NCBI GenBank assembly: GCA_014860115.1
Contig: JACZKK010000200.1
Location: 17,384 to 81,383 of the forward strand
DNA length: 64,000 nt
Source: Ignavibacteriaceae bacterium
GTDB taxonomy: Bacteria; Bacteroidota; Ignavibacteria; Ignavibacteriales; Ignavibacteriaceae
Direction: 5' to 3'
Of the stretch, positions 54,662-63,007 are shown piece by piece; the first letter of the stretch is position 1, and each line of letters begins with the position of its first letter. The notes beneath the pieces are model-generated. The model did no database searches. It was not told the DNA's origin and saw only the letters and a program-made list of their open reading frames with translations. The position numbers were made by a program, and so were the translations under genes.

Positions 54662-54806
54662 ATCTTTTTTCATAAATAACTTATCTTTCAGGCAAGTTAG
54701 TGGCTTTGATGTCACCACCTCCAATAATTCAACACTATGAAATAACTGCGAGAATCTTATTTTTGTATCTTAAATCATAGTGAGAAAAGTATTTAATATT
54801 TACTAA

Positions 54807-55682
54807 ATGAATAAAGCACTTCATAAAATATACGTCAGTTTGTTTTTAGTTGTTGGAATAAGTGTTACTATTCTTCTGACAATCTATGGATTTGATTATT
54901 ACACAACCCCACTTGAGGAAAGATTTTTCAATGCCAATCATAATTTATTAAAACCTAGTGGTGCATTAGGTCACGGTTTTGGAATTATTGGGACATTGAT
55001 GATGATTGTTGGGGTGAGTGTTTATATGATCAGGAAGAGATATAGAAAATTTTTCAACATCGGATATCTGAAACATTGGCTGGAGTTTCATATTTTTCTT
55101 TGTTCGGTTGGCCCAGTGCTGGTATTGTATCATACAGCATTTAAATTTGGCGGAATTGTGTCCGTTAGTTTCTGGAGTATGGTACTGGTAGTTCTGAGTG
55201 GTGTAGTCGGGAGATTCATTTACCTTCAAATTCCAAGAACTATTCAGGGTCAGGAAATTAGTGTCAATGAATTGAATTCAATAAAGGAAAAACTTGCGAT
55301 AAAAGTCAGAAGTGTGTTGAGTGAAGATTCTTCAACCTTATCGGAGTTTGAAAAAATTTCATCAGCGGATCGGTACAAGTCATTTAATCTGTTAACAGCC
55401 GCTGGATTTTTTGTAAGGGATTATTTTGATATTAAAAGAGTAATGAGACTTTTGAAAATGAGAATCAAGCTATTAGGGGTAGGTAAGTCGGAGAGCAATG
55501 AGCTGATCAAAGCGGCCAAATCTGAAATTGTAATAGCCAGAAGAATAGCATTGTTAAGAACATCTCAGAAATTATTCCACTGGTGGCATATTTTTCATTT
55601 ACCTTTCGCTATAACTATGTTTGTCATAATGGTTATCCACGTTGCTGTAACAATTATTTTTGGTTACAAATGGATTTTTTAA
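54807..55682 (+). CDS. Multi-TM, probable heme-binding (cytochrome b-like) membrane protein
   Basis: Histidines in or next to TM segments: GALGHGFGIIG, KHWLEFHIFL, LYHTAFKF, HWWHIFHLPFAITMFVIMVIHV. Confidence 0.55.
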   Translation: MNKALHKIYVSLFLVVGISVTILLTIYGFDYYTTPLEERFFNANHNLLKPSGALGHGFGIIGTLMMIVGVSVYMIRKRYRKFFNIGYLKHWLEFHIFLCSVGPVLVLYHTAFKFGGIVSVSFWSMVLVVLSGVVGRFIYLQIPRTIQGQEISVNELNSIKEKLAIKVRSVLSEDSSTLSEFEKISSADRYKSFNLLTAAGFFVRDYFDIKRVMRLLKMRIKLLGVGKSESNELIKAAKSEIVIARRIALLRTSQKLFHWWHIFHLPFAITMFVIMVIHVAVTIIFGYKWIF

Positions 55683-55710
55683 TTAATTTAGATTTATCAA
55701 GAGGATTAGA

Positions 55711-56313
55711 ATGAAATTCAAACCAGTATATTTATATGGAATACTTGTAATCGTTGCTGTCTCGTTATTGATTATTGTCGGCATTCAAGAAACATCCGAT
55801 TCAACTGAGGCTCCTGTAATTAACAATCAAACAATGCCAGACGATGATGTCCACAAAGAATTAAAAAATCAAATCGGGAACACACCTGGTAAAGAAAATG
55901 TTTCCGAAGAGTATCGAAAAAAATTAGCTGAGTTTAAAGAAGCTGTCGATAAAAATCCTTCAGACACACTTGCAATGCGAAACTATGCTGACTTCCTTTC
56001 CGCTTCTCATAAAATGAATGAAGCTATTCCTTATTATGAAAAGATATTACAGATTAACTCAAAACGGACAGATATTTATTTTTCACTCGCATTAATTTAT
56101 TACAATAAACAAGATTTTGCTAAATGTGAAGAAGTAAATAAAGAAGTACTTTCCTTTGATCCATCAAATCAGATGGCTCTTTATAACATTGGAGCTATCG
56201 CAGCAACTCAGGGGAATAAAGAAAAAGCAAAAGAATTTTGGAATCAGGTAGTTTCTATCAATGCAGAAAGTGAGACAGGAAAACTTGCGATAGAATCGTT
56301 AAGTAAATTATAA
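55711..56313 (+). CDS. Membrane-anchored TPR protein
   Basis: N-terminal TM YLYGILVIVAVSLLIIVGI followed by TPR units. Confidence 0.8.
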   Translation: MKFKPVYLYGILVIVAVSLLIIVGIQETSDSTEAPVINNQTMPDDDVHKELKNQIGNTPGKENVSEEYRKKLAEFKEAVDKNPSDTLAMRNYADFLSASHKMNEAIPYYEKILQINSKRTDIYFSLALIYYNKQDFAKCEEVNKEVLSFDPSNQMALYNIGAIAATQGNKEKAKEFWNQVVSINAESETGKLAIESLSKL

Positions 56314-56321
56314 TCTATTTG

Positions 56322-59300
56322 TCAGGAATTTTTATTTCTTAACCGTATCCTGCTGATCATAAAATATAATGCGCCAATTAAAAGCAGAATTAATAAAATG
56401 TGTGTTACTCCTATCGATGAAGCCTGTTGAAGTTTTAATGAAGATGGGTTTCCTGAAAGAACAAAAGCAGACCAATAATAAGGATTTGCTGAATAATTTT
56501 TTATAAACTCCAGCTTCGCCTGTCTTAATGCATCCGACTTTGATTTGCCTTCTGCCAAATGTTTATAGAAATCCCGCATAAAATATGAAGTATACTTGTC
56601 ATTAACATCCCACAAAGAAACAATTACACTTTTACTTCCGGCTTCGAAGAAAGCTTTTTGCATTCCAACTATTCCTTCTGCTACATCCACTTTTCCCAAA
56701 CCACTGCGGCAGGAACTCAAAACAACTAATTCACTTTGAAGATTAAGCTGAACTATTTCTCCTAACTCTAAAAATCCATCTTCTTTTTTGTCTCCCTGAG
56801 AGGAAAAGAAAATTAAAGGTTGATCCTTTAAAAGAAATGAGTGTGTTGATAAATGTACTATATCACTTTTCGGTGCGTTTCGCTTAAAGTTACTTTCAGT
56901 TGCTTGATTAGATGTAAAAATCAAATTGTTAGTAATCGTCTTATCAATACTTTCAATTTCGTCCTGAGAATATTCCAGAGGGAATAAAAGAATATTTCTC
57001 GAGCTTGATGGATTAACATCTATTAAGCCACTTCTTACACTTAATGAGTACTCGGTATTCATGATAAATGGATTCCCGATAAGAAGATTTTGATTATTGA
57101 TATTTACAGATTTATCCATTTGAATAAAATAGATTGTAGCCGAAGGTGTATAAGAAATTTGATATTCATCCAGCAGAAATTTTTTGTCACTGTAATAGTA
57201 AGGGCTTTCGCCATCCTTCCATTCAGTAACCAGCATTTCAATTGGCAGCTTTACCAGTTCAGGTGGAAAACTTACTATCAAATTAGAATTAGTTGGAATC
57301 CTTGAGAGAAAATCATTAAATACTGCTTTGAACAATCGGTAGGCAGCTAACGCATTAAATGAAAATAAGTCTTCATTGACATAAATTTCCTCATCTGCCA
57401 TATCATATCGATAGATTGGTGAAACTGATTTGAGAATTGACAATAAACTATCCCGACCAATATTTATGCTCTTGAGACTCAATCCCTGTGAATTTAAATC
57501 AAAAAGTGTCAAAAACTTCTCGCCGATATAAATCGTAACTATATGATCATCTTCTCCAAGTTTTTCCTGCATATCTTTTATTGTCTTAGATTTTTTCTCA
57601 AGCAGAGTTCGATCTAATAATTTATTCACAGCAACAATTTCAGTTTTAATTTTTGTAACGACTTCCTTTAATGAATCAGTTACTGCTTCATCATAAAGTC
57701 CCGAAGAAATCATCCATTCAAGATCGATCAGCAAATTGTAATCTGTTTTATCTTTGAAGTGAGAAAGAAGTTTGAGTCTCTCTAAATTAGTTTTTGTATT
57801 TCTTGATCTGGATTTATCTATGATAACAAATGCTTCTTCACCCCTGCCCTGTTTAAGGTACAATTCTGCCAATGAATTGAAAACAGAATTCACTCCTGAA
57901 AAATGTGCTATCTGAATCTCCTGGTTTGGGCTAAGCGGTGAAGAAATTTTTTCAATTATTTCTATTGCTGCCAAGTACCTTTTTTCTGCTTCATTAGTAC
58001 TGTTTTCTTTCTCATAATTTTGCCCAAGCAGATATGCAGCTTCGATCTGATTGTTGTAATCGTGCACACTTCCACTTATTTGAAATGCGGCAAGATATTT
58101 CTCAACTGATAACTCAATTTTATTTTTAGCTTCATATATCTTACCAAGATATAATTCCTGTAATCCCAAAAGCTGAGTTAGTTCATACTCTCTTGATGAC
58201 GATTGTGCTTCACTCAGCAACTTAATTGCATCGTCGTAATTCTGTTGCTTAAAGTAGTTGTAAGCCAGTTCAGTCTTCAAAACTATTGAACTGTAAATAT
58301 CTCCTACATTATTTGCAAGGTTTAATCCTTTTTGAAAATAAGTTTCGGCTTGACTTACACTATCAATCGAAGTTAACACTGTTCCGATTTTAGAATATAG
58401 TTTTACTATTTCAAATGGTGATTCGTTGCTTGAAATTTCAGAGTCTGCTTTCTTAAAAATTTCCAAAGCATTAAAGGGACGGTTGATATTGTAATATAAA
58501 GCTCCAATGCCTTGATCGATTTTTAAAGCAGAAGTTACATCCTTCACTGAGTCGGCTATCCCTTTTGCACGGCTGTAATATTGAAGAGCTTTAGAATAAT
58601 TTGATTGGTTCGAATAGACATCCCCCAATCCGGTAAGATTCAAAACTTGTCCTAATTTATTCTCGCCGGCGAAATTTAATCCCCTGCTGTAATAATCAAG
58701 TGCTGATTTGTAGTTAGCAATTTGAAGATAGAGTGAGCCAATGTTGCTCGACAGGTACGAAAGTCGCTCATTGTTTTTCAGTTTCTCGTAAAGGGAAAAA
58801 CTTTTTTCGTAATTCTTTCTGGAATCAATCAAACTTGCGGTGTATGAGAACGAAACACCAAGCTCCGAATAGAGGAATGCGAGTAATTCCATATTCTCAA
58901 TTTCCTCAGCCATTTTAATAGCAACCTGAAAATCATCTCTCGCTTCAAAAATCTCTCCATAAACATCCTTGATTATCGCAAGGTTTGCAAAAGATTTTAT
59001 TTCTTCAGATTTATTACCTGATTTGATTGATGCCTCCAAGGCTGACTGGTATTTTTTTTTTGCTTGTTCGTACTCTCCAGACAAATAAAAAATAGTCCCT
59101 TTCAGGTTGATGATTTTAGAAAGAAAGACATCACTATCTTTACACAATTTTTCAGCTTCCATAACATTTCGTAAAGAAGCATCGTAGTCCCCGATGACAC
59201 GATGTAAATATGCCAATTGATAATAAATTTCTTTTGATGCAAATCCGGTCCCGACTAAAGACTTTATTTTTTCAATTGCGACTGAACTGTTCCCTTCATT

Positions 59301-59765
59301 CATTTCTACCAGTGCATCAAGATATCGGTAGAATGGATCAGTAGATTTCTTTTCGTTTGAATTAAGCCACTTCGATAATTCATCGAGTCTGCCTGTTACC
59401 TTCGCAAAAGCAGAAAGCTCTTCATAATAATTTAAGTGTGAAGGAAAATATTTTAGAAGAGTAAAAAGTTGGTTGAATGAGCCTTCAAAATCTCCTGATC
59501 TTTTTTTAAGCAAAGCAGATAAAAATTCCCGTTCAAAATCGCTTGATAAAGAATTTAACTCCATTTGAACTTTTTCTTTATCAATAGATTTATTTTGGAT
59601 GATATCGAGATAGTAAAAAAACTCTTTGGAAGGATTGGTTATATTTAGATCTTCCTGTTGGCTGGATGGAGAATAATTTTTGTAGGAGTTAGAAACTCCC
59701 GAGAAGCTAATCGCAGCTATAATAAGACAAGAAGCTAATACAATAATTTCTTTTATTAGAAACAT
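56322..59765 (-). CDS. TPR-CHAT domain protein (caspase-like peptidase)
   Basis: N-terminal hydrophobic segment, many TPRs, CHAT motifs DIVHLSTHSF and ELVVLSSCRSGLGKV, SVIVSLWDVND; C-terminal TM HILLILLLIGALYFMI. Confidence 0.92.
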   Translation of the reverse strand: MFLIKEIIVLASCLIIAAISFSGVSNSYKNYSPSSQQEDLNITNPSKEFFYYLDIIQNKSIDKEKVQMELNSLSSDFEREFLSALLKKRSGDFEGSFNQLFTLLKYFPSHLNYYEELSAFAKVTGRLDELSKWLNSNEKKSTDPFYRYLDALVEMNEGNSSVAIEKIKSLVGTGFASKEIYYQLAYLHRVIGDYDASLRNVMEAEKLCKDSDVFLSKIINLKGTIFYLSGEYEQAKKKYQSALEASIKSGNKSEEIKSFANLAIIKDVYGEIFEARDDFQVAIKMAEEIENMELLAFLYSELGVSFSYTASLIDSRKNYEKSFSLYEKLKNNERLSYLSSNIGSLYLQIANYKSALDYYSRGLNFAGENKLGQVLNLTGLGDVYSNQSNYSKALQYYSRAKGIADSVKDVTSALKIDQGIGALYYNINRPFNALEIFKKADSEISSNESPFEIVKLYSKIGTVLTSIDSVSQAETYFQKGLNLANNVGDIYSSIVLKTELAYNYFKQQNYDDAIKLLSEAQSSSREYELTQLLGLQELYLGKIYEAKNKIELSVEKYLAAFQISGSVHDYNNQIEAAYLLGQNYEKENSTNEAEKRYLAAIEIIEKISSPLSPNQEIQIAHFSGVNSVFNSLAELYLKQGRGEEAFVIIDKSRSRNTKTNLERLKLLSHFKDKTDYNLLIDLEWMISSGLYDEAVTDSLKEVVTKIKTEIVAVNKLLDRTLLEKKSKTIKDMQEKLGEDDHIVTIYIGEKFLTLFDLNSQGLSLKSINIGRDSLLSILKSVSPIYRYDMADEEIYVNEDLFSFNALAAYRLFKAVFNDFLSRIPTNSNLIVSFPPELVKLPIEMLVTEWKDGESPYYYSDKKFLLDEYQISYTPSATIYFIQMDKSVNINNQNLLIGNPFIMNTEYSLSVRSGLIDVNPSSSRNILLFPLEYSQDEIESIDKTITNNLIFTSNQATESNFKRNAPKSDIVHLSTHSFLLKDQPLIFFSSQGDKKEDGFLELGEIVQLNLQSELVVLSSCRSGLGKVDVAEGIVGMQKAFFEAGSKSVIVSLWDVNDKYTSYFMRDFYKHLAEGKSKSDALRQAKLEFIKNYSANPYYWSAFVLSGNPSSLKLQQASSIGVTHILLILLLIGALYFMISRIRLRNKNS

Positions 59766-59768
59766 CAA

Positions 59769-60755
59769 TCAATTCTTCTCCAGATCTGATATCAAATTTG
59801 CAGCTTCTTTTGAATATTTTCCTTTACCGTCTACAACCTTTTGTAAGCTGGATATTGATGAATCTCGCTCGTCACTCAGCAGATATGCTCGTCCGATATA
59901 ATAATAAGCATCAAGCTTTAAGCTTTCATAATCACCAGAATTATTTTTATCTATTGATTCCTTGAGATTGGCAATTGCAAGATTTACATTTTCACGATCG
60001 TACGACTTAAATAATCCGAAAAAATCTTTTTCAGATGCTTTCAGATATGTAATTCCGATTATATAGTGAGAGTAGAATATTGATCTTTCATTCTGATGTT
60101 TCTGGATATCTTCAGACAAGAACTCAATGGCTCTTGAATAATCGCTCTTATCGATTGCATTCAAACCCTGCTGAAACAAAGGTGAAGTTCTACCTCTTGT
60201 TTTATAAAAATCTTCCTGCTCATTTGCAAAAATATTTTTTTTGTAGTCGGGAGTGATAGAAGTTGAAACAACAAACAATCCGAAATAGGCAACTATAAAT
60301 ACAGCCAGAGTTGCGAATGCATATCTGAAAGAAGTTGACGGTTTAAAGAACGAAGGGATAAAAGAATTCTTCTCTCTTACTGAGGTTTGAGATGTTCTAA
60401 CAACAGATTTGTTCACATGCTCACGTACCTCGGAATACTCTCTAACTAACTCGTTATATTCATTTTTACAGATTATACATTGATCCAGATGAGATTTTAT
60501 CTGCCCACTCAGCATGGCAATTATTTTATTTTCGTGATCATCTTCCTTTTCATTTAAAACATAAAATGCCAATAAATCAGTTGGAAGGTGACCGGAGGAA
60601 GTAAGTGAAGAGCTAAGAGTTTTATAAATATTGACAAATGATTTGATCTCTTCATCTGAATCAGCATATTGTTTTAAAAACTTCTGGTCATCTTCATTTA
60701 AAGATTTCTTATCTAGGAGCTCTAATATTTTATCAAATTTTTCCATAGTTCTCAA
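59769..60755 (-). CDS. Putative anti-sigma factor: zinc-finger-like N-terminus, one TM, C-terminal TPR
   Basis: IKSHLDQCIICKNEYNELV (HxxxCxxC), TM FRYAFATLAVFIVAYFGLFVV, TPR SPLFQQGLNAIDKSDYSRAIEFLSEDI. Confidence 0.8.
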   Translation of the reverse strand: MRTMEKFDKILELLDKKSLNEDDQKFLKQYADSDEEIKSFVNIYKTLSSSLTSSGHLPTDLLAFYVLNEKEDDHENKIIAMLSGQIKSHLDQCIICKNEYNELVREYSEVREHVNKSVVRTSQTSVREKNSFIPSFFKPSTSFRYAFATLAVFIVAYFGLFVVSTSITPDYKKNIFANEQEDFYKTRGRTSPLFQQGLNAIDKSDYSRAIEFLSEDIQKHQNERSIFYSHYIIGITYLKASEKDFFGLFKSYDRENVNLAIANLKESIDKNNSGDYESLKLDAYYYIGRAYLLSDERDSSISSLQKVVDGKGKYSKEAANLISDLEKN

Positions 60756-60804
60756 TTTGGTTTTTATCGATCATTTAGTATCCCAAGTATTTATTTCGTG
60801 ACAT

Positions 60805-61281
60805 TTATTTTAACTTATCTTTAAGTTCTAGCAATGTCCTGTAAAACATTTTCTTTACGGCAGCTTCATTTTTATTCAATTTTTCTGCAATCTCATTGAA
60901 TTTTAAATCACCCCAAAATCTCAGTCTGACGATTTCCTGCTTTTCTTCACTTAAAGTATTTAGAACGGATAATGCGCTTTCCGAATCGATCATATCTGAA
61001 CTTTCCGAAAAATTGTCAGGGGCCGGTATATTTTCCTTCAGAGAAGAATGCGATTTGTTTTTATTCGATTTATACCATTTTACAAAATTTAAGAATAGAA
61101 CTCTTCGAAGCCATTTTTCAGGCTCTTCTATATTATGGTATTGCTGTGCGAATGAGAGGTAAACATTTTGGGTAAGATCATCAACATCATCCTGGTTAAG
61201 AATTCTTTTTTGGTGGTACTTGGATAAATAATATGTATGGGAGATTTGCCTTACAAATCCGGAAAGTTTTGCAAAAGCCAC
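60805..61281 (-). CDS. ECF-type RNA polymerase sigma factor
   Basis: DDVDDLTQNVYLSFAQQYHNIEEPEKWLRRVLFLNFVKWYKS; region 4 LSEEKQEIVRLRFWGDLKFNEIAEKLNKNEAAVKKMFYRTLLELKDKL; N-terminus probably extends upstream. Confidence 0.88.
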   Translation of the reverse strand: MAFAKLSGFVRQISHTYYLSKYHQKRILNQDDVDDLTQNVYLSFAQQYHNIEEPEKWLRRVLFLNFVKWYKSNKNKSHSSLKENIPAPDNFSESSDMIDSESALSVLNTLSEEKQEIVRLRFWGDLKFNEIAEKLNKNEAAVKKMFYRTLLELKDKLK

Positions 61282-61417
61282 CGAATCACCTTCTTTTGAC
61301 TTTTTCAGGAGGTCATCGAGCTCTGAACCAGAAATATTTAGATAGTCTATTTTTTTCTCGCTTTATTTTTGTCACGAAATTACTAAACTTGATACTAAGT
61401 AGAAAAAAATCCATCAT

Positions 61418-63007
61418 ATGAAATTTACGATTATCACATTTTTTATCATTTTCAATGTCGGGGTGCTTGCTCAACCCGAGCTTGATATTAAACCAAACCG
61501 GATTGAATTTGAAGATCTATTCAACAGGATTGACTATGTATTCTTAATTAATAAAGGTGATGCAATATTAACAATAGATAGTATTAATTATAACGATTCA
61601 CTTTACATTTTAGAATTTGAGAACAATTTAACTTTACCATTCACAATAATTCCTGATGACTCAATAAGAATGAACGTATTTTTAACCGCTTTTTATCAGG
61701 TTACTATAAATGATACTTCAGATACAATATTCGTTTATAACAATGGTATTCAAAACCCAAAACCTCTCGAGGTGAGAATAAAATTTTTCGAAGATGAGTT
61801 TGGAGAATTTAATGGAGCAGTACGAGATAGTCTGAATCCTGTGGATAGTGCCACTGTTTATTTTTTCTATAATGGAATTTATCTTCTTGATACTGCAAAA
61901 ACCAGCTCATCGGGAAATTATCGGATAACATTGCCTGAAGGTGACTACACCATTGGCGTTGAGAAAGAAGGTTACTACGTTGTTTTTCACGACAGCACTT
62001 ATGATCCATTTTTTGCTGAATTAGTTGAACTTGATTCGGGTGATGTAAAAACCATAAACTTCAACCTGAAAAAAATCGAAAATAATAGTCTTTCTGTAAG
62101 CGGACAAATTATTGATTCAGTAAACGGAATAAATGTTAATAAGGGAATTATCATTGTACGAACTGGTACGCACGTTCCTGTACCGTTCTCAAAAGAGAAT
62201 ACCGTGCTTTTAGACACTATAAATGCTTTTGCTGGATTTATTAAAGAAGATGGTTCATACCTAGTGAATGTACAAATACAGGATTACTACTATTTACAAG
62301 CTTACACTAACAATTTCCTTCCGGGATTTTATAACGATGAAGGGATTCCGGCTGTATTCTGGCAAAATGCAGATTCAGTTTTTATTAACGGTAATATAAC
62401 TGATAAAAATATTCCGCTTGTCAGAGATTCTTCGTACGGTGCTGGTGGTATTGGTGGGTTGATTACATTTTCAATGCCGTCCGATGGAAGCGACTTTGAA
62501 GGTATAACAATTTTAGCAAAAAATATTAATAATGGTGCTTTGTATTCTTACAACTTCGGAAAAGAGTTGGGTGAATTCAATGTGACAAACATTCCTTACG
62601 GCACCTATGAGCTAGTCGCTCAAAAGATCGGACTAGATAATACAGTTAGTCAAACTGTGGTTATAGATCCTTTGAACAATCAGATTACAGGTATCAATCT
62701 TAATTTTATTATTAATAACGTTGAAGATGATAACATATTACCGGATGGTATCATACTCTATCAGAACTACCCCAATCCTTTTAATCCGATTACAAACATT
62801 TCTTTTTATTTACCTCAAACATCTGATATAAAATTGAAGGTGTTCAATGTTTTAGGTGAGTTAGTTGAAACAATTGTTGACACAGAACTAAGCAGCGGGT
62901 TTCATACTGTAACATTTAGCGGAAGCAAATTTGCATCTGGTATTTATCTAATACTTCTCGAGACGAACGAATTTAGGCTAAGCAAGAAGATGCTGCTTCT
63001 TAAGTAA
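61418..63007 (+). CDS. Secreted protein with carboxypeptidase-regulatory-like domains and T9SS type A tail
   Basis: Signal peptide; SATVYFFYNGIYLLDTAKTSSSGNYRITLPEGDYTIGVEKEGY; tail NYPNPFNPITNISFYLP...SKKMLLLK. Confidence 0.85.
   Translation: MKFTIITFFIIFNVGVLAQPELDIKPNRIEFEDLFNRIDYVFLINKGDAILTIDSINYNDSLYILEFENNLTLPFTIIPDDSIRMNVFLTAFYQVTINDTSDTIFVYNNGIQNPKPLEVRIKFFEDEFGEFNGAVRDSLNPVDSATVYFFYNGIYLLDTAKTSSSGNYRITLPEGDYTIGVEKEGYYVVFHDSTYDPFFAELVELDSGDVKTINFNLKKIENNSLSVSGQIIDSVNGINVNKGIIIVRTGTHVPVPFSKENTVLLDTINAFAGFIKEDGSYLVNVQIQDYYYLQAYTNNFLPGFYNDEGIPAVFWQNADSVFINGNITDKNIPLVRDSSYGAGGIGGLITFSMPSDGSDFEGITILAKNINNGALYSYNFGKELGEFNVTNIPYGTYELVAQKIGLDNTVSQTVVIDPLNNQITGINLNFIINNVEDDNILPDGIILYQNYPNPFNPITNISFYLPQTSDIKLKVFNVLGELVETIVDTELSSGFHTVTFSGSKFASGIYLILLETNEFRLSKKMLLLK

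Follow-up and report, generated by a model that had tools for sequence, protein, structure and literature searches.

A predicted transmembrane signaling module in Ignavibacteria pairs a TPR-CHAT protease with an ECF sigma factor, a membrane anti-sigma factor, and a type IX-sorted protein

What does a caspase-like protease do beside a sigma factor and its membrane-bound inhibitor? The question is raised by a 64,000-nucleotide stretch of DNA from an Ignavibacteriaceae bacterium (contig JACZKK010000200.1), referred to here as the window. On its minus strand, genes for an extracytoplasmic function (ECF) sigma factor, a membrane anti-sigma factor, and a tetratricopeptide repeat (TPR) protein with a CHAT peptidase domain follow one another. 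A sequence-only reading had taken these genes as one operon, with a divergent gene for a protein sorted by the type IX secretion system (T9SS) as a neighbor and possible target. We confirmed the three open reading frames (ORFs), their coordinates, and their order (Table 1). A plain three-gene operon is too simple a description, as a promoter-like motif lies between the sigma and anti-sigma genes, and the divergent gene, here called t9, is now counted as the conserved fourth gene. We put at roughly two in three the probability that the locus as a whole is best explained as a self-contained transmembrane signaling module, with the CHAT protein as a dedicated periplasmic site-1 protease that cuts the anti-sigma factor and with sigma feedback through two promoters. 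PADLOC gave generic matches only and no defense system.

We collected relatives of the anti-sigma factor through a protein search covering the class and a profile search covering the order. It was found in some 36 genomes, the named ones being Ignavibacteriaceae, Melioribacteraceae, and other Ignavibacteria metagenome-assembled genomes (MAGs). The gene set as such recurs in ~35 genomes of the Ignavibacteriales. The proposed synteny of sigma, anti-sigma, and CHAT genes was borne out across the order, with CHAT downstream of the anti-sigma gene and on the same strand at 32 of 38 related loci (window not counted). Between these two genes, the distance typically ranged from a few-base overlap to a gap of 23 nt. 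The full set of four genes was present at 27 of the 38 loci, as in the window, and most of the others were cut by contig ends. The order sigma, anti-sigma, CHAT was also kept in five genomes of a more distant family. Among 36 CHAT loci outside the family but in the same class, 10 had an ECF gene within two genes. ECF genes made up 10 of 138 near genes versus 2 of 181 further off (Fisher P = 0.006), and this linkage was often convergent or divergent. As a separate observation, other members of the class (L048, L055, L056, L065, L066, L068, and L073) have ECF genes convergent or divergent to CHAT, some with an anti-sigma-like gene; these are additional cases of CHAT paired with a sigma factor, in which the partner proteins differ.

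The anti-sigma assignment draws on gene context and motifs; Pfam anti-sigma models gave no match to the protein. Its gene lies beside the sigma gene, and the product, which more likely starts at Met4, has an N-terminal HxxxCxxC domain (HLDQCIIC in the window) and one transmembrane (TM) helix. These are the features of a class I (zinc) anti-sigma factor, and sigma binding is putative. H89, C93, and C96 were kept in 94 to 97% of CHAT-positive loci, and HLxxCxxC was found in >90% of order members (absent from L122 and G013). Beyond the TM helix lies a C-terminal TPR region of ~160 residues, which in the predicted orientation would be the extracytoplasmic domain of a membrane-spanning anti-sigma factor of the kind processed by regulated intramembrane proteolysis. 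In the structure model, the TPR was well folded and the linker between it and the TM helix was of low confidence, predicted to be flexible. Searches of the PDB by sequence and fold returned generic TPR folds or nonsignificant matches only. One genome, G149, differs in form: a 487-amino-acid (aa) ORF (L150:2933-4396, on G149:C327) is a degenerate sigma factor fused to an anti-sigma factor, with CHAT not adjacent, and the same genome carries a second sigma-anti-sigma-CHAT locus, L151.

The CHAT protein, encoded by the single CHAT gene in the 99%-complete source genome, combines a strong CHAT domain match with TPRs; the ATG at 59765 is its more likely start codon. Both catalytic blocks, HLSTHSF and LSSCRSG, are intact, and His975 and Cys1019 were kept in 29 of 29 near-full-length relatives. 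The domain thus has the hallmarks of a clan CD CHAT peptidase, with putative proteolytic activity. By hydropathy, the protein has an N-terminal hydrophobic segment and a C-terminal TM helix followed by RIRLRNK, a layout that fits the envelope-facing placement suggested by the sequence-only reading.

Five columns were invariant among the 33 anti-sigma factors from CHAT-positive loci. Four of these were kept in two or all three of the CHAT-negative loci. Arg187 was the only column that was both invariant in the CHAT-positive set (33/33) and lost in every CHAT-negative locus (0/3), being replaced by Q in L037 (genome G125), G in L142 (G291), and Q in L150 (G149). Gly188 followed in 30/33 CHAT-positive versus 0/3 CHAT-negative sequences (N, E, and P, respectively). 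On the tree, the losses of Arg187 are three changes. The residue lies in the linker, ~23 residues beyond the TM helix, in a low-confidence coil of the model directly before the first TPR helix, and the residue after it is mostly small (G, A, or S in all order members). For an unbiased placement, we aligned five distant CHAT-positive anti-sigma factors to the family profile without columns 187 to 189. An Arg fell at position 187 in all five (RTA, RGT, RGA, RGT, and RDG), 20 to 26 residues beyond the TM helix.

General decay is no obvious cause of the Arg187 loss because L037 and L142 deviate at only 3/22 and 2/22 other conserved positions, within the CHAT-positive range. Genomes G125 and G291 are 98 to 100% complete, and no CHAT domain was found anywhere in either. 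At the CHAT position in G125 is a 114-aa ORF (L037:7945-8289) with an open frame and two TM segments. Over its C-terminal 45 aa, this ORF is 53% identical to the membrane anchor of CHAT in the nearest relative of G125 (E value of 1e-9), so CHAT was once present there and its ectodomain was lost, leaving the N-terminal hydrophobic segment and the C-terminal anchor. The same three CHAT-negative loci also lack t9. Many clan CD proteases cut after an Arg at P1 with a small residue following. From this preference and the correlation between Arg187 and CHAT, we name R187/G188 (the slash marks the cut bond) as the predicted CHAT cleavage site; by sequence comparison, the conserved, CHAT-dependent Arg sits in the linker, where a site-1 cut would fall.

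We then asked which genes the sigma factor might control. The motif TGTCAC-N18-ACTA, counted at ≥9 of 10 matching positions, was found upstream of divergent t9 at 21/24 loci (16 perfect) and upstream of the anti-sigma gene at 28/39 loci (21 perfect, window included). It was enriched at a spacing of 18 only, with other spacings seen at 0 to 4 loci for t9 and 0 to 8 for the anti-sigma gene, and 0.1 occurrences were expected from shuffled sequences. A scan ahead of the sigma gene found no such motif. Since the motif precedes the anti-sigma gene and t9 and none precedes the sigma gene, anti-sigma-CHAT and t9, and not the sigma gene itself, are probably under the control of the sigma factor. The anti-sigma and CHAT genes thus probably have their own sigma-dependent promoter, apart from the sigma gene. 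Separate transcription of CHAT and sigma had been put forward as a reason to reject the proposed link between them. The separate promoter is indeed predicted, but it does not break that link, because the same motif lies at t9 and makes a feedback loop.

The t9 product has carboxypeptidase-regulatory-like domains (PF13620), a sorting domain (PF18962, Por_Secre_tail; E value of 4.3e-9), and a hydrophobic N terminus. A sorting domain with a predicted signal peptide marks it as T9SS cargo with a type A C-terminal domain (CTD). Orthologues at the locus are 31 to 58% identical to it, and t9 is divergent in 23 loci and on the same strand downstream of CHAT in 7. The earlier suggestion that t9 is a sigma target is supported by the fixed-spacing motif and the co-loss with CHAT. 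We take t9 to be at least an output, and it is possibly also a signal. The source genome itself encodes very many proteins with T9SS tails (a search with the tail of profile A8 gave ≥150 matches).

Taken together, these data suggest the following model. Little sigma factor would be made, and the single-pass anti-sigma factor would keep it at the inner membrane. The TPR-CHAT protein would be exported and anchored facing the periplasm, where its long TPR array would sense a signal and activate the caspase-fold site of His975 and Cys1019. CHAT would then cut the anti-sigma linker between the membrane and the TPR, after Arg187 (T-R/G-R), and a housekeeping site-2 protease would finish the membrane stub and free the sigma factor. 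The source genome has three matches to PF02163 (M50, site-2 protease) with a putative role in this pathway. Freed sigma factor would transcribe anti-sigma-CHAT and t9 from the TGTCAC-N18-ACTA promoters, a response that would both amplify (through CHAT) and reset (through the anti-sigma factor), while t9 would be exported to the surface by the T9SS as an output and possibly as a signal too. The genes, their co-conservation, the catalytic residues, the correlation of Arg187 with CHAT, and the positions and spacing of the motif are read directly from the genomes; the export, topology, cleavage, site-2 processing, activating signal, sigma-motif binding, and role of t9 are steps of the model.

Several points weigh against this model. 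Arg187 was picked after the data were seen, and there are just three CHAT-negative loci. One of these, L150, is the long-branch fusion, which has also lost the Cys motif and whose genome has other CHAT genes. Because the CHAT-negative loci have also lost the anti-sigma promoter motif (6 to 7 of 10 positions match), decay of the circuit as a whole could have taken Arg187 with it. We infer cleavage from sequence comparison and sigma binding from the position of the motif, and the predicted export of CHAT draws on hydropathy. The structure model gave a good TPR array and a poor CHAT domain (predicted local distance difference test score of <50), so analysis of an Arg-binding pocket was precluded. 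In addition, Craspase, the sole precedent for a CHAT protease acting on a sigma inhibitor, cuts at nonconserved sites (PMC11106740).

Could t9 be what the module senses? T9SS cargo reaching, or failing to reach, the surface would then be sensed by CHAT, and the module would monitor the T9SS or the outer membrane. We regard this as possible and hold it tentatively. t9 is co-conserved and co-lost with CHAT and is the conserved predicted sigma target of the module, and there is a precedent in Porphyromonas gingivalis, whose CTD protein PorA feeds into PorXY-SigP (PMC7712824). However, an output would show equal conservation, and nothing puts t9 in contact with CHAT. Similarly tentative is a broader proposal in which a periplasmic caspase-fold site-1 protease cuts after a single Arg, T9SS-exported t9 is the sensed signal, and the system parallels the Craspase sigma arm at the membrane and without CRISPR, its genes being arranged in several ways across the class Ignavibacteria.

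It is unlikely that CHAT is instead an effector, with some other trigger freeing the sigma factor and CHAT degrading misfolded or other periplasmic proteins or killing the cell. CHAT does share its predicted sigma-dependent promoter with the anti-sigma gene, as a regulon member would, and other CHAT proteins are of the executioner type. Such a role leaves unexplained why the loss of Arg187 coincides exactly with that of CHAT and why the residue persists in distant CHAT-positive relatives. Slightly less likely again is a noncutting arrangement in which CHAT binds the anti-sigma factor by TPR-TPR contacts, with Arg187 in the docking surface and control by conformation. Both partners have TPRs, and correlation alone cannot decide whether a residue serves in binding or marks the scissile bond; against docking, Arg187 lies in a low-confidence coil and mostly precedes a small residue, a pattern like that of a scissile bond, and all 29 CHAT proteins compared keep the catalytic dyad. 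Adjacency by shared ancestry with no direct mechanism, to which membership in one class and the near relatives held in MAG collections would lend themselves, is very improbable given 29 to 45% identity over the order, a CHAT gene order that stays fixed while t9 moves, the joint loss of t9 and CHAT, and the ECF-CHAT linkage seen elsewhere with other orientations.

The proposed cut of the anti-sigma factor would release a sigma factor of ~181 aa with matches to sigma70_r4_2 (PF08281; E value of 4.8e-10) and to the ECF model TIGR02937 (51.7 bits versus a curated cutoff of 42.9), one of ~16 sigma region-4 matches in the source genome. No match to sigma region 2 (PF04542) below an E value of 0.1 was found in the short ORF called from a GTG. 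Homology extends upstream of this GTG to an AUA codon (61348-61350), and no in-frame ATG, GTG, or TTG lies ahead of the conserved N terminus in the clade of the window. All members of this clade share an AUA or AUC at this position, preceded by a GAG-rich Shine-Dalgarno-like stretch (~12 genomes: the window, L119 to L121, L124 to L128, L130, L131, and L037), and sister clades mostly use TTG. From this alignment, the sigma factor probably starts at AUA or AUC in the window's clade, and its translation may be kept weak on purpose. The first five loci, with a conserved GTGACA...A7, had suggested a programmed frameshift or polymerase slippage. This was ruled out, as the A7 run was not conserved in more loci and the GTG frame stops immediately in L126 to L128. 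GTGACA is itself the complement of the TGTCAC of the t9 promoter and is absent where t9 sits downstream of CHAT, which ruled it out as a start codon. In one close relative, a 292-aa lipoprotein-like gene without a Pfam match lies between the sigma and anti-sigma genes (L077:2849-3727, locus L121).

A whole-genome regulon could not be drawn from motif counts, with 7 matches versus 6 in a reversed-pattern control, and some of the matches were Cys-His codons (TGTCAC) of heme CxxCH motifs. We retained candidates only if the site was conserved at homologous genes; these are weak, and the wider regulon is only a lead. The candidate at 54710 precedes genes (54807-56313) for a 291-aa multi-TM protein without a Pfam match and a membrane-anchored TPR protein, and it is also found before the homologous pair in G205, which lies beside multiheme cytochrome genes. 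A second candidate precedes a PepSY lipoprotein gene in both the source genome and G181. Module-type motifs occur there in a cluster (L211, G000:C146:26000-41810; L212 in G181) of T9SS-sorted proteins, the PepSY lipoprotein, a flavin adenine dinucleotide/4Fe-4S oxidoreductase, and MtrC-like multiheme cytochromes. The G181 cluster adjoins the module at ~3 to 19 kb.

Table 1. Coordinates of the module genes and predicted features in the window
Feature	Position	Strand	Basis or remark
ECF sigma factor	60805..61350	-	GTG-called ORF 60805-61281; probable true start AUA at 61350
Membrane anti-sigma factor	59769..60755	-	HLxxCxxC domain (predicted cytoplasmic), one TM, linker, TPR (predicted periplasmic)
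Anti-sigma HLDQCIIC zinc-finger-like motif, residues 89-96	60468..60491	-	Conservation of H89, C93, C96
Anti-sigma TM helix, residues 146-164	60264..60320	-	Hydropathy; model helix 141-167
Anti-sigma Arg187-Gly188, predicted CHAT cleavage site (P1-P1')	60192..60197	-	Conservation versus CHAT presence; low-confidence coil in model
Anti-sigma TPR-like ectodomain, residues 192-328	59772..60182	-	Domain search and structure model
TPR-CHAT protease (putative), 1147 aa, N-terminal signal/anchor segment, C-terminal TM	56322..59765	-	
CHAT peptidase domain	56448..57335	-	PF12770, E value of 1e-55
Catalytic His975 codon	56841..56843	-	Invariant
Catalytic Cys1019 codon	56709..56711	-	Invariant
t9, T9SS-sorted surface protein, carboxypeptidase-regulatory-like domains	61418..63007	+	PF13620, PF18962; orthologues at locus
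Predicted sigma-dependent promoter of t9, TGTCAC-N18-ACTA	61370..61397	+	
Predicted sigma-dependent promoter of anti-sigma-CHAT, TGTCAC-N18-ACTA	60776..60803	-	
Candidate further promoter, TGTCAC-N18-ACTA	54710..54737	+	Upstream of 54807-55682 and 55711-56313; weaker than the two module promoters

How does the module compare with known systems? Closest in topology is the DegS-RseA-RseP pathway of sigma-E. Both have a single-pass anti-sigma factor and site-2 proteases in the genome and, as predicted here, a near-membrane periplasmic site-1 cut and an envelope-facing signal. The putative site-1 protease here, however, is an operon-encoded caspase-fold cysteine protease in place of a PDZ serine protease. 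Eukaryotic separase (C50, clan CD) also joins a TPR-like helical array to a caspase-fold protease and has a preference for Arg at P1, and the CHAT domain gave a weak separase match (PF03568; E value of 0.03); substrate, compartment, and partners differ.

Closest in logic is Craspase/CASP (type III-E CRISPR; Cas7-11-Csx29, Csx30, and CASP-sigma), in which a TPR-CHAT protease frees an RpoE-like sigma factor via its inhibitor and internal sigma-binding motifs of the locus suggest positive autoregulation (PMC10028731). The shared feature would be a TPR-CHAT protease acting on a sigma inhibitor, as predicted here. Craspase is RNA guided and makes nonconserved cuts (A/S, L/D, and M/K; PMC11106740), in contrast to the predicted conserved Arg. 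Its inhibitor, Csx30, is unrelated to the membrane anti-sigma factor, and the window CHAT protein has membrane-anchor segments, another predicted compartment, and another trigger. PDB searches with the CHAT domain gave generic or nonsignificant matches only, with no detectable sequence match to Csx29 chains, and no homology of the anti-sigma factor to Csx30 was found. For want of a sequence link to Csx29 or Csx30, we do not file the module as Craspase. No obvious cas genes were seen in the module neighborhoods read, where no dedicated cas or CRISPR-array search was made. By analogy, the module would work like DegS-RseA and Craspase. In PorA-PorXY-SigP of P. gingivalis, a T9SS CTD protein is likewise tied to an ECF sigma pathway (PMC7712824); the link there runs via a two-component system, the abstract names no CHAT or anti-sigma partner, and t9 is likened to PorA by description.

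The papers searched contained no report of an ECF-CHAT module outside Craspase. CHAT proteins are widespread in bacteria, but substrates are known for very few of them. For this bacterial caspase relative, comparing genomes is enough to propose a substrate, the scissile residue within it, two promoters, and the seed of a regulon, so that a single cleavage assay and a single point mutation could put its function to the test. If the model is true, caspase-fold enzymes would be added to the few known site-1 proteases of transmembrane sigma signaling. It would also suggest that the sigma arm of Craspase belongs to a broader partnership of CHAT proteins with sigma factors, and there would be a second route tying a T9SS surface protein to gene control.

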